NCBI GenBank assembly: GCA_030141605.1
Contig: JAQGDQ010000025.1
Location: forward strand, 850,907 to 914,906
DNA: 64,000 nucleotides
Direction of reading: 5' to 3'
From: Tubiluchus corallicola
Lineage: Eukaryota > Priapulida > Priapulimorpha > Priapulimorphida > Tubiluchidae
Under the pieces are notes generated by a model. It saw nothing but the letters and a program-made list of their open reading frames with translations. It was not told the DNA's origin and did no database searches. This document shows positions 6,401-45,400 of the stretch, one piece after another. The position numbers and the translations under genes were made by a program. Every line of letters begins with the position of its first letter. The stretch's first letter is position 1.

Positions 6401-9400
6401 AAACTGAGTGTGATGAGGAACTCCCCTGAGTGTAAACTGAGTGTGGTGAGAAACTCCCCTGAGTGTAAACTGAGTGTGGTGAGGAATTCCAATGAGTGTG
6501 AACTGAGTGTGGTGAGGAATTCCAATGAGTGTGAACTGAGTGTGGTGAGGAATTCCAATGAGGGTGAACTGAGTGTGGTGAGGAATTCCAATGAGGGTGA
6601 ACTGAGTGTGGTGAGGAATTCCAATGAGTGTGAACTGAGTGTGGTGAGGAACTCCACTGAGTGTAAACTGAGTGTGGTGAGAAACTCCACTGAGTGTAAA
6701 CTCAGTGTGGTGAGGAACTCCACTGAGTGTAAACTGAGTGTGGTGAGGAATTCCAATGAGTGTGAACTGAGTGTGGTGAGGAATTCCAATGAGTGTGAAC
6801 TGAGTGTGGTGAGGAATTCCAATGAGGGTGAACTGAGTGTGGTGAGGAATTCCAATGAGTGTGAACTGAGTGTGGTGAGGAATTCCAATGAGTGTAAACT
6901 GAGTGTGGTGAGGAACTCCACTGAGTGTAAACTCAGTGTGGTGAGGAACTCCCCTGAGTGTAAACTGAGTGTGGTGAGGAACTCCCCTGAGTGTAAACTG
7001 AGTGTGGTGCAGAATTTCCCATAGTTCAGCATTTTTCAGTAACACATGCAGCAGTTGTTTTAAGAAACTTATATACATGTTGTACTCTTCAGCATGTCAA
7101 ATCAACAGCAAGTAGATATCATATCGTAGCCTATGTGAGCTTTTAAACGTTTGTTATTTGTAAACGTTACTATCATTTAGGTTATGGCCCAAGTGGCCAG
7201 GAGGGCAGGCTGGCAGATACGGATTTGAACATTACCATTCGTGTGTTAGAAAATGACGACCCTAATGGTGTGTTTGCATTCGATTCTGAAAACCGTGAGC
7301 AGAATGTGGCAGAGGATTATGAAGTTGGATCAGAGCATTCTACAGTAGCTAACTTTTCTGTAGTACGACAGCAAGGACTTTACGGAAGAGTGCAGGTATG
7401 TAACAAGTTTTAATGTTATAAAATGGATTTAAATTTTCTTCTTTGCATTTCTAAATTACTACTAACATTTTTTTTTTCAGTACTGATAACTAGACTAGGC
7501 GAACATTAATAAGAAAACTTTCTGTGCTGGTACAAAACTAGTACTATATTGTTGTGCACTCAAAAGTATTGTAACCATTTATTCGTTGTTTTGTATATTC
7601 AGTGTTTAGTAATTAATGATTATGGACTTTCAAAATCTTGCCTATCAGTGCAGGTCTCTAGTAGTTACTACAGTACTTGTGAATTTACATGGGTAAATGT
7701 GAATTCATATTTCAGTAGCAAAAACTGGTCACCGTTGTGCACGTTTTTCCCATAGAATTCGTTATTTTAGTCGATGTTGCATTGCTTCAAGTGCTGTTTT
7801 AATATTTAATTATATTTGTATGTTTCCATTGTTTTGTTTGTCGGTGTTTTTTCTTTCTCGTTTCCTTTTCCTTCTTTTCTTTTCACTAACAGGACAGATA
7901 TTCAACAAAGCCCTTGCTAATAAGTCCTTTCACAATTTAGTTGTACACACGTCCAGTTGCTGCAGGTCAAAGGTTAAGTGTACTACAGCAACGTGTCTTA
8001 ACTACAATCGTCACGTGATGTGTGGGTAAAGCAAACCGTTTGCCATATCAGTTTAATAACTTTAGCTGTTTTACGTGGACTTTACTTAATTGTGCATTAG
8101 TCTGTGCATAACATGATTTACTAGCAGGATCTTGCTTGAGAACAATAAAAAATGAACTAGGTAAGGTTCTTGTTAACTGTTAAAACTGTTAGTATTACAA
8201 TAGCATGGGCTCCAAGCCGTTGTCAAGTGTACACAAACCTTGTCTGGTACACTTAACCTTTGACCTTTTCATGATCATCATCAACTTCTTATTGTGCGCA
8301 ATTAACAATAATGTGTGCCATTTTATGCAGATACTATGGGAAGTGTTTTCTCATGCCATTGCTGGAGAATTGCCAATTGTGTGGGATTTGCTATTCTTGG
8401 GTGATGCTCCAAGTACCGTAACAAAAGCGGATGATTACCAGCGTTTTGCTACTGGCACTTCTGTCTACAAGTTTTTTGGTCAACCAGGTAAATTATGCTT
8501 AATAAATTAGAATTTAATTCTCATTATTAATGTAAGTCATTAGAGATTTGACTATTTTTTGGATATTTTTACTAGACATATTTTTTTCTAGTAAAAACTT
8601 TACTGTAAACAGCTTAGATCTTATATACTGAATAGAGAGACCTAATAAAGGCCAGCTTATACCAATGCATGTCATTAATAAAAGAAATTAATGTAAGATG
8701 GCTAATAAACACTTCTCAGACACCTAAAGCTGTCTATTAGCCTAAATAATTGAGGTCTTATTTTTTTAATTACTTTACCTAAAAGGTTGTGTGTATCTTA
8801 CACAAAGGTGCTACTTTTCTAGTAAGTTGCTGTAGCAAGTGTCGTGTTTAAATTTGCCGGCACTTGAGTACTGAATGATCTGTTTTAGGTGATTATGTAA
8901 CAGTACCGCAACAAAATCATCCTACCATTTCGGAAATTGAGACCGGCTTTTCCATAACCGCTTGGGTCAGACTTCAACGCACTACGGAAGGTTACATTGT
9001 CGCTAAGACGTCTCGTCCTGGCACACATCATTTCTATACGTTTCTTCTGTCTACTTTATCTGGTGATACTGAACTTACTTATGGGTACAGTATATCCGAT
9101 GTTCGTTTGCAGATGCTGGTAAGTTGTTATAAAATCACCAATCGCTATAACGTTTTTAATGGCTATTTTGCATTTTTAAACACGGATTTTGCATGTTGTT
9201 TGATACGAGTTTATCCCAATTGTTGCTGAAACACATCAGTTTTCATTTAGAATGTTACTAGGTCAATGAGATTATGTTACTTACAAATGCACTTTGTGTT
9301 AACTTTTTTTGTTTGCTGACAGTTTCTTTTTGTCAGACATTTCTGGCTCCAATAAATGTAGAAATTCATAAAATGTAAAATGTAACGTTTGTCAGTCTCA

Positions 9401-42400: not shown

Positions 42401-45400
42401 TATTTTTTGTAAACTGTGTCATTTACAAAATGTTGTTTGCTTTTTATTTTTAGTCAGCACACTCTGGTGTTTGAAGAAGGACAAACAGAATTGAGAGTTG
42501 GTATCGGAATCTTAGACGATTCCATTCCCGAAGGTTCAGAAATGTTTACTGTTTCTCTGGCAGATCCACGTGGCGGCGCTGTTGTTGGCTCTCGCGACAG
42601 TGTCAGAGTGAAGATCCTTGCAAACGATGATGCTTATGGAATTGTTGAGTTTTCCGAGGTAAAATCTAAAAAGAATACTTTTAACTAGTGAGAAAGAAAG
42701 TAAATGTAGGGTATCATGTGTCTTTTTAAAATAGCCAATGCAAATAGTATATGACGAGGTGATAATGAAATGACATAAATTCCTATTGCTTTTAAATAAT
42801 TTTGTTTTGTGTAAGGTTATGCACTGGTTATATAGACTTTAGCATTTTGTAGTTAAGTTTATTGTAAATTATAACTATTGCACTGAAAATACAATTATTT
42901 GGCATTATTTAATTTATTTAACTTCCTCATTTAGGATTCTTTGAATGTGAACGTTGATGAGTTAACAATACCAAATCAAGTTACGCTCACCGTTCTTCGA
43001 AAACGGGGTACTTCTGGTCGTGTGATTGTCACTTGGGTTGCGAGTGGTGAACATGACGGAATCAATGATCTTTCACCAGTAAACGGAAGGGTGAGCTGTT
43101 TTTCCTGTTTTTTCTCCATCTGTGTTACTTATTTCAGCTTGTAGTTGGTAGAGGAACGGTTACAGAGACACTGGTATACAAAAAGGGGGTTTGGTAAGTG
43201 ATTACAGTCACCCTCTGAATTTCAAGTTTGAATTTAAGATTTACCAACTGCATTTTAAGTGGTTTAGCTGTCAACAGTAATACTTAGAGGCTGAAGTTGA
43301 GTCAGTTGCTACTACATTAGCTGACTCACACAGTAAATCAGCTAGCTCGGCTGAGATTGACTGACCTTTCTGCTGAGTTGGCTTAAAGAAAAAATTAGCT
43401 AAGTCAGCTGGAGTTATGAGTTTTTGTTAACTAAATAAATGATAAATTGTTTGGTAACTGTTAAATTATGGAGACAAATCATTTGTGTTAATTATATGCA
43501 GAAAAAAACTGATGTACAAATGCAAGTAATGCATTGGAGATCAATTTTTTATTATTATAAAAAAGCAATGGTTAGTTGCAAATGTAATTTAAATCATACT
43601 CTTGGCGAGACTTGTCTTGATTACCAACGAATCAATACCAAAACACCAAAATGATCCCATACGTATGACTAATGTTCCCCACTGGTGTATCTTTGAATTG
43701 ACCTGCTTTCTCGTTCAAAAAATTGTAAAGTTTAATATCTGTGCCAGCACACGCACAACCTGCATGCATCTCAACCAGTAATTTGCAGTGTCACGTGATT
43801 ATGACAGGAGCAGAAATCTTTGCAGCCAGCAAAAATGTCGGCTAGCTCGACTCCCAACACTGAGCAGCTCGCGCTATTAAAACTGGGTTTCTCGTTTTCT
43901 AAATCGACTGCAGAAATATACCGGCTAGAGCTCAGCTGAAACGGCACATCTCTGGGCTCTAGTAATACTTAATAATTTATGGTATTTTTGGGATATGGAA
44001 AATATAATTATTTTGTTTGTATATTTGTTTGTATTGTATTCGCGGCGTGAACAACTTTGTGGCAAATTGGTTTTTCCTTTGCTTACTAATTTCCACTTTG
44101 TGCTATTGACAAATTATACATTAATGTGAGCTCCAACTAAGTTTTTCAATAGAATAAGACGGCTATAAATTTTATTGCTGTTAGGTTGAGTTTGGCGATG
44201 GTCAAGACAAGACTACAATAACGCTTACAATAGGACCTGATACTAAGCCAGAACTGAATGAAGTAACATTAATAACACTCACAGATATAGCTTCTACTAG
44301 CAGAAATGGAAAAGGCCCGCAAATAGGTAAGGGATTATCTTACCATATTTTTGGCATACAATTTGTGTAATGTATTTCAATTCTTCGATTTTCTTTTTTT
44401 TTGGAAGCGCGAGTTTTTTGTTTCGTGAAAATTGAAGCTACCTGCATTTTTGATTTTAGTGCTTAAAAAGGAACACTAATGTAGGTAGAAAGTATGTTGG
44501 CTGTGTCATGCTTCAGTTCTATAACTGTGCTGCAATTAAACTTGTGGCAAGTATATTTTGGAAACTTATCTGAAATTTATCTTTTTGCACAAGGTGAGAA
44601 GAACGTTGCAAGAGTGACAGTCATGGCCAATGACTCTCCTCACGGTGTGGTTTCATGGGCACGAAAAGAAGTCACAGTTAGCGAACCTTTTGGACAAGGT
44701 TCAAAGATCAATCTAAAAGTTGTACGTGAACAAGGGACAATGGGAACTATCATCATTACATATAGGTATGTACAGACTGTTGTTTATAATTGCTATTAGC
44801 AGCGAGTATTGATATGATTGATGTAAAATTTCTTGTTATGCTCAAATATCGTCAGCTATCAGCTAGTATAACCTGGAAAATAGATGTAGATGTAGCCTAG
44901 GGAATAGATCCAGCAGTCATTGCTTACGGCAAACATTTACTTTATTTTATTTTGTCAAATGTTAAGGAACAGTAGTGTGGTTTTATCATCAAATGTGTCT
45001 GAGAATATTTCTTACACTGTTGCTTCCATTCCTTATGTACATCTGCAAGCATTCATGGATTTGACAATTTTTAATTTAGTATTGCAGGAATAACTGAATA
45101 GTAGAAAGCTTGCTTTTGCGTCGCAAAGCATGGGGTTTCCTTGCAAGGCAAGCTGAAAACAACATTAAAATAATTGATGGATCATTGATTTTGTTGTTAG
45201 GACTGCAGTATTTTTCTTTAAATTTGTCAGTGAAACTTTTTCAGGCTTGCTTAGTTCTCGTAGCAGTAAGTGATTAATTACTCCTTTCTGACATTTACAA
45301 ATAAATGCATTTAGGGTAATTTACTGTACATTTCTTGTAATATAACATGAAATGTGTTTACATGTTTTTTTTCATTCTGCAGCACTAGACAAGCAATTGA

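Follow-up and report, generated by a model that had tools for sequence, protein, structure and literature searches.

The window analysed here, a stretch of 64,000 nucleotides from the priapulid Tubiluchus corallicola, spans the middle of an ADGRV1/VLGR1-like gene. We consider it quite probable that three unrelated domains of this predicted ADGRV1 orthologue, a laminin-G domain, a PAN domain and an EAR beta-propeller, are seated in the C-D loops of intact Calx-beta sandwiches, from which they would project as lateral arms on a continuous, Ca-stiffened rod. The first-pass annotation of this DNA had proposed that each of the three splits a Calx-beta module in one common loop, and the complementary halves of a Calx-beta profile found on either side of each insert confirm the proposal.

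The gene and its inserted domains

Judged by its predicted domains, the gene is an animal ADGRV1 (VLGR1) orthologue. The gene model places 72 coding exons in the window (262..63625, forward strand, as are all features below) and reaches beyond it on both sides, to about -15449 and +77689. That the exon phases agree is inherent in the exon finder and so is not independent evidence, except for the hand-added exon 30387-30497; from 69797 to 76801 exon modelling is weak and some exons are doubtful. A profile search of the modelled gene delimits a long extracellular array of 39 Calx-beta units (about -14170 to 69715), and one laminin-G/PTX domain and EAR/EPTP repeats lie inside it (PF13385, PF03736). 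A secretin-type 7TM domain follows at the C-terminal end, downstream of the window (exons 76801-77689), where Pfam 7tm_2 reaches 27.0 bits against a cut-off of 20.6 through a partial match (profile positions 101-184 of 250 only). Vertebrate ADGRV1/VLGR1/GPR98 likewise combines a Calx-beta array, one laminin-G/pentraxin domain and one EAR/EPTP set with a following 7TM domain, but the accessible parts of the published accounts do not list PAN, which the gene described here has, as a domain of the vertebrate protein.

The inserts were identified by a Pfam search of the gene model, with matches listed up to E 10. In M4, strands A-C of the module (7252..8354; part of exon 7181-7395, and 8331-8354) precede a 219-residue Laminin_G_3 domain (8355..11453; PF13385, E=2.5e-18) encoded by exons 8331-8487, 8889-9118, 9845-9978, 10918-11049 and 11426-11640; strands D-G follow from 11454 to the exon end at 11640, and exon 12125-12366 encodes the final residues ahead of the linker. 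The assignment of the 3' acceptor at 11426 is uncertain: it was picked by domain logic and has a splice-site score of -2.8, whereas the sites at 11390 and 11395 reach 0.0 and 0.3. The N-half of M11 (21937..22835; parts of exons 21853-22034 and 22787-22961) is followed by a PAN domain of 94 residues including flanks (22836..26104), with its core in exon 25321-25464 (phase 0/0), and by a C-half at 26105..26347, inside exon 26093-26471. PAN_1 (PF00024) matches over profile positions 17-58 of 76 with E=1.5e-8 and 34.8 bits against a curated cut-off of 21.4; a protein search of the same genome for another PAN copy, with the best candidates scored, led to two places, both of them the window's own exons. 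The insert of M17 is a 380-residue EAR/EPTP propeller (38047..42217; PF03736, E=3.8e-38, with five stretches when matches to E 10 are included), encoded by the end of exon 37929-38056, exons 39222-39445, 39990-40139, 40270-40389, 40592-40752 and 41299-41564, and part of exon 42009-42237. It lies between an N-half at 37222..38046 (parts of exons 37093-37268 and 37929-38056) and a C-half at 42218..42622 (the end of exon 42009-42237 and part of 42454-42658). The EAR chains of LGI1 match this insert in sequence (best E 9.2e-5), and the two share EPTP repeats; the LGI1 propeller differs in being free-standing after the LRRs, not nested in another domain.

The split point in the three modules

The halves were delimited with our own Calx-beta profile, trained on 11 of the gene's other modules, with M4, M11 and M17 left out. 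They occupy columns 1-48 and 53-109 of 117 in M4, 1-47 and 49-115 in M11, and 1-48 and 55-116 in M17, so that the three modules share their split columns and none has a strand missing or duplicated; the split was kept when the profile was retrained on 26 modules, the N-half of M4 then covering columns 1-50 of 116. By this placement the insertion site is the C-D hairpin loop of the predicted Calx-beta fold, between strands C and D, the strand letters being taken from the literature and the split columns being measured. Half scores of 21.6-39.8 bits compare with at most 5.4 in 500 shuffles per module; with the 11-module profile the weakest C-half of the three is that of M11 (19.8 bits) and the weakest N-half that of M17 (17.6 bits). 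With the inserts present, Pfam Calx-beta gives M4, M11 and M17 scores of 25.6 (below the cut-off of 27), 32.6 and 39.2 bits, the best stretch in each case being the C-half (54-101, 49-115 and 54-101 of 119). With the inserts removed, PF03160 matches each module as one stretch (13-102, 6-115 and 13-101) at 30.6, 35.2 and 53.1 bits, all above the curated cut-off of 27, although joining two halves simply adds up their HMM scores, so that packing is not provable from such scores alone.

The C-half had been said to resume exactly at a strand of the form S-G-x-h-x-F / F-x-x-G, which is close to what is seen, except that the match restarts 5-14 residues earlier (M4, KKDVQPVSGYLTF; M11, SDIDYEPASLDYIF; M17, SDFVPSQHTLVF). 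The resumed match takes in a Ca-ligand Asp, 4-5 residues before that strand, and the insert ends just upstream of this Asp. Nor do the motifs quoted for the three modules hold throughout: M11 and M17 lack the S-G, M11 the F-x-x-G and M17 the W/Y.

An AlphaFold model of one ordinary module exon, a module fragment predicted from an alignment of 15 single-exon translations (three rows, 52535, 5563 and 19735, carrying M in place of the true first residue), has modest confidence (mean pLDDT 66.8). In it, residues 19-28 form a loop linking two strands that are C and D by alignment. The first 32 ranked PDB matches of this model in Foldseek are all Calx-beta domains of NCX/CALX or integrin-beta4, the best at E 0.017 and none reaching E 0.001. 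Our profile also aligns to the NCX1/CALX CBD chains, where the split point corresponds to the loop before a conserved Asp. The CBD1-CBD2 pair shares with the present array the Calx-beta fold, the ligand acids and distal-loop Ca sites adjoining the linker; it differs in being an intracellular two-domain sensor and in that the C-D loop of the aligned chains holds no domain.

Rival readings and the origin of the inserts

The domains might instead sit between modules, with the flanking half-modules being decaying remnants that do not co-fold, and the array would then fall into four segments. The half-modules do score below whole ones (17.6-35.7 against up to 115.5 bits, some of the whole ones having trained the profile), and their packing is predicted from sequence. 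Against decay, the halves are complementary, with no strand absent, and D, D, E and E stand at the acidic Ca-ligand positions of each split module (12/12), whereas ligands have been lost in several ordinary modules (e.g. 54922, 58085 and 59498). The A-B, B-C, D57-D83 and F-to-next-linker spacings are in the ordinary range; only the C-D spacing departs from it, at 227 (M4), 108 (M11) and 389 (M17) residues where 33 ordinary modules have 8-25. We therefore regard decay as very unlikely. Alternatively, the inserts could be cassettes that some transcripts skip, leaving a shorter C-D loop. Skipping is phase-compatible for M11 (22961, phase 0, to 26093, phase 0) and M17 (38056, phase 1, to 42009, phase 1), but it would retain leftover insert residues in both, and the M4 phases are incompatible with it (8487, phase 1; 11426, phase 2); this too seems unlikely.

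An origin by exon shuffling into an old C-D loop intron, which is compatible with the nested arrangement, likewise has a rather small chance of being correct. Two of the six insert edges (the 5' edge in M17, the 3' edge in M11) have an intron no more than 4 residues away, and four ordinary modules have an intron at columns 46-52, but no insert is flanked at both edges by introns within 4 residues, and the loop introns of the ordinary modules vary in column (47, 51, 46 and 52) and phase (0, 1, 2 and 0). Mapping of intron positions to the module profile revealed no common intron able to have received the three domains. Three events in one loop are only mildly improbable by chance, at p=0.008 for three split points within 6 of 116 columns and p=0.02 for three inserts in the same one of seven slots.

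Integrin beta-4 and bacterial Calx-beta arrays have the same fold, and in the bacterial modules, too, length varies mainly in the C-D loop, which holds 40 of 63 inserts of 5 or more residues in a biased sample. The bacterial arrays differ in having no split modules among 308 at E 1e-3, a threshold that weak halves could escape. In the same genome, other Calx-beta loci that we take to be NCX-like (L001/L004 on contig C1477, L003/L008 on C2047, and L005 and L007 on C679) have an ordinary C-D loop in 6/6 modules where it is readable, with a domain-sized insert in none. A search for a paralogue of the ADGRV1-like gene led to contig C1064, where a presumably FRAS/FREM-like gene gives five Calx-beta matches, all of them C-halves only. 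Because domain-sized inserts are absent from the 6 readable modules of the NCX-like loci and from the 308 bacterial modules, the C-D loop is not a general landing site. The idea of a repeated landing site holds insofar as one loop received three unrelated domains, and is weakened by the lack of a common receiving intron and of domain-sized inserts in those other modules; more plausibly, a loop that commonly varies in length in this fold has here been extended to an extreme. Insertion there may be tolerated because the loop varies in length, and also because the two termini of laminin-G, PAN and propeller folds lie close together.

A probable side-armed rod and its implications

The use of one loop by three unrelated domains, the complementary halves, and the intact linker motifs and ligands make a continuous array with side-mounted domains the best reading, and the earlier claim to this effect is partly supported, on sequence grounds. 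We infer that strands A-C before each insert and D-G after it would pack into one Calx-beta sandwich whose acidic ligand set binds Ca. With the domain in the C-D loop of one re-formed sandwich, it would therefore project sideways from a continuous rod stiffened by Ca, at the end of its module that faces the following linker, and at such junctions the inserts may serve as lateral binding arms with an adhesive role. The accessible text of one report locates Calx-beta Ca sites in distal loops, close to the linker that leads to the following domain, with Ca stiffening the domain pair (PMC13370880), and that of another gives four conserved residues of a rat VLGR1 module (PMC8220163) the same spacing as the ligands here (26, then +4, +7).

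Published ADGRV1 domains include laminin-G and EAR, and the description, in its accessible parts, sets Calx-beta repeats, laminin-G and the EAR domain side by side; neither a PAN domain in ADGRV1 nor nesting in its Calx-beta modules was found in the accessible text of the open-access literature. Variants published in PMC9262510, as far as its text is accessible, place EAR1 after Calx-beta 22 in vertebrate ADGRV1. In the present gene the EAR-split unit comes after 22 others if the PAN-split unit is counted and the laminin-G one left out, a loose fit that depends on the chosen counting. Residues A3155 and A3234, assigned to Calx-beta 22 and EAR1 in the accessible published data, lie 79 residues apart, a gap that does not tell the two arrangements apart: by our estimate about 82 residues are needed with a nested N-half and about 38 or more without one. 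It is possible, if somewhat doubtful, that the C-D loop is the receptacle for the laminin-G, PAN and EAR domains of ADGRV1, with arms at Ca-controlled junctions coupled to stiffness, the vertebrate laminin-G and EAR domains nested likewise and PAN perhaps lineage-specific.

ADGRV1 has been linked to epilepsy and Usher syndrome. Should its domains indeed be nested, the ectodomain would be one unbroken rod with lateral arms, published module counts may overlook split modules, and variants in half-modules would become readable as Calx-beta variants. Nesting would also single out the C-D loop as a place where Calx-beta rods can accept additional domains.

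A candidate ADGRV1/VLGR1 orthologue and its repeats

The window covers positions 850907-914906 of contig C2286. A single plus-strand gene spans the entire window, in which a home-made exon finder combining coding statistics, splice weights and phase chaining places 72 exons; agreement of exon phases is built into this procedure. Extended on both sides, the model comprises 96 exons from about -15449 to +77689, with the extension exons partly doubtful, chiefly those at 69797-76801. Two boundaries were edited manually (acceptor 11426 for 11390, donor 28759 for 28714), and exon 30387-30497 (phase 1/1), whose phases agree with those of its neighbours, was inserted by hand. 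A scan using profiles trained on modules from this gene itself gave 42 matches, representing 39 Calx-beta units, 36 of them ordinary and three split. Because the array holds laminin-G and EPTP domains, and exons downstream of the window match Pfam 7tm_2 above its curated cut-off, the gene is best read, on sequence grounds, as an ADGRV1/VLGR1 orthologue.

The laminin-G/PTX domain and EAR repeats of ADGRV1 are already published, and the parts of those papers available to us describe them beside the Calx-beta repeats, with nesting unmentioned there (PMC10604119, PMC9262510, PMC8220163, PMC5996530). Our search of the open-access literature returned no paper linking Calx-beta with a PAN domain, an apple domain or domain insertion. 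In vertebrate ADGRV1, EAR1 is reported to follow Calx-beta 22 (PMC9262510), a position that loosely fits the present gene, where 22 units lie upstream of the EAR-split unit if the PAN-split unit is included and the laminin-G-split unit excluded. Elsewhere in the 343.5 Mb assembly, EAR/EPTP-coding stretches (L101-L106, L108 and L109) occur on contigs C1921, C1027 and C1312, none of which appears among the listed matches of a genome Calx-beta search.

Several tandem repeats accompany the gene. Five copies of a 125 bp unit (96% match) occupy 59473-60099 and contain SQVGFLHDTILVDE, a coding segment belonging to modelled exon 59403-59516. They represent either an artefact of assembly or a multiplied exon with which a weakly matching Calx-beta unit begins. 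A 33-bp minisatellite of 26.9 copies (6121-7009) lies in the intron directly upstream of the first split module; its long open frames on both strands are taken not to be genes. Six copies of a 28-bp repeat (38422-38591) sit in the intron where the EAR insert has its 5' edge.

Three domains in the C-D loop

The first-pass annotation had proposed that three unrelated domains interrupt the same Calx-beta loop, and this observation is borne out, with the loop now specified as that between strands C and D. At the stretches it named, Pfam matched Laminin_G_3 (E 2.5e-18) in M4, the split module starting at 7252; PAN_1 (E 1.5e-8) in M11, starting at 21937; and EPTP (E 3.8e-38) in M17, starting at 37222. 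The inserts measure 219, 94 and 380 residues in that order. With inserts kept, the Pfam Calx-beta scores of M4, M11 and M17 were 25.6 (under the cut-off of 27), 32.6 and 39.2 bits; with inserts removed, each became a single Calx-beta stretch above cut-off, at 30.6 (profile 13-102), 35.2 (6-115) and 53.1 bits (13-101), respectively. A profile of 11 ordinary modules (117 columns; the three split modules left out) divides M4 at 1-48|53-109, M11 at 1-47|49-115 and M17 at 1-48|55-116, and a second, built from 26 full-length ordinary modules (116 columns), at 1-50|54-110, 1-50|48-115 and 1-52|55-115. Half-modules scored 21.6-39.8 bits with modules taken alone, against a shuffle maximum of 5.4 (500 shuffles per module).

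Outside C-D, the split modules are ordinary in their measured spacings. For M4, M11 and M17 in turn, the A-B stretch is 32, 25 and 29 residues (ordinary 22-33, n=31); B-C is 13 in all three (12-22, median 13, n=34); the distance between the conserved acidic columns D57 and D83 is 26, 27 and 26 (26-28, n=34); and that from F to the next linker is 28, 37 and 27 (18-46, n=28). C-D, by contrast, measures 227, 108 and 389 residues versus 8-25 (n=33). Here n falls below the 36 ordinary units where a local match stopped short of the columns. The four acidic positions read D, D, E, E in all three split modules, and are kept in 28/34, 30/34, 31/34 and 28/33 ordinary modules, in order. Their spacing of 26, then +4 and +7, equals that of D4690, D4716, E4720 and E4723, the four conserved residues reported for a rat VLGR1 module (PMC8220163). 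In human module 30, D4449, D4474 and D4475 are described as aligning with NCX Ca-site residues (PMC10604119), and D4449-D4475 repeats the spacing of 26 of the first acidic pair. Units 54922, 58085 and 59498 have lost three of four Ca-ligand acids, and may be Ca-free joints in the rod.

Origin of the inserts and tolerance of the loop

Introns lie within 4 residues of two of the six insert edges, and of both edges in none of the three inserts; the four ordinary modules with an intron mapped to columns 46-52 differ in its column and phase. With intron positions so scattered, no clear trace of exon shuffling into a common intron is discernible. A less likely reading makes the inserts cassettes that splicing may include or skip: exon phases would let the PAN core exon, and likewise five EAR exons, drop out without a frameshift, whereas the laminin-G exons could not.

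The chance of three domains sharing one loop is 0.008 (any 6-column span) or 0.02 (one of seven equal slots), and the coincidence is even less surprising than these values imply because the C-D loop tolerates length change. Among ordinary modules of this gene its length (8-25 residues) has a standard deviation of 4.6, second only to the stretch with F-G (5.7); in modules 17330, 29477, 63520 and 66735 the C-D loop reaches 21-25 residues, lengths that may represent intermediate stages as the loop grew. In 308 bacterial modules from 80 loci, 40 of the 63 inserts of at least 5 residues fall in C-D columns 41-50 (longest 45), although this sample is biased, since the loci are the best 80 of 459 confirmed, picked by similarity to a hand-typed consensus. 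Split modules numbered 0/308 in these loci at an E cut-off of 1e-3, which weak halves may escape, and the six readable modules of other Calx-beta genes in the same genome all have an ordinary C-D loop with no domain-sized insert.

Insertion site in the fold

The gene's own module profile aligns with NCX1 and CALX CBD1/CBD2 chains, and in NCX1 CBD1 the split maps to the loop immediately preceding the conserved Asp that comes after DGTAxAGS. Calx-beta sheets are described as G'-A-B-E and C-D-F-G-A', with Ca sites in the distal inter-strand loops, close to the linker toward the next domain, where Ca stiffens the structure (PMC13370880). AlphaFold was given ordinary exon 17075-17401 and 14 further exon translations; for the former it predicted strands at 11-18 and 29-34 with an intervening loop at 19-28 (mean pLDDT 66.8). 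Foldseek's top 32 ranked PDB matches to this model were all NCX/CALX or integrin-beta4 Calx-beta entries, with a best E of 0.017 and thus none at E 0.001. The NCX alignment, the published position of the Ca sites and the ordinary-exon model together suggest, by extension from ordinary and NCX/CALX modules to the split ones, that the inserts would exit the sandwich at its Ca end, adjoining the following module. The interpretation offered with the first-pass annotation, a continuous Calx-beta array bearing side-mounted domains, is the best reading that the sequence affords.
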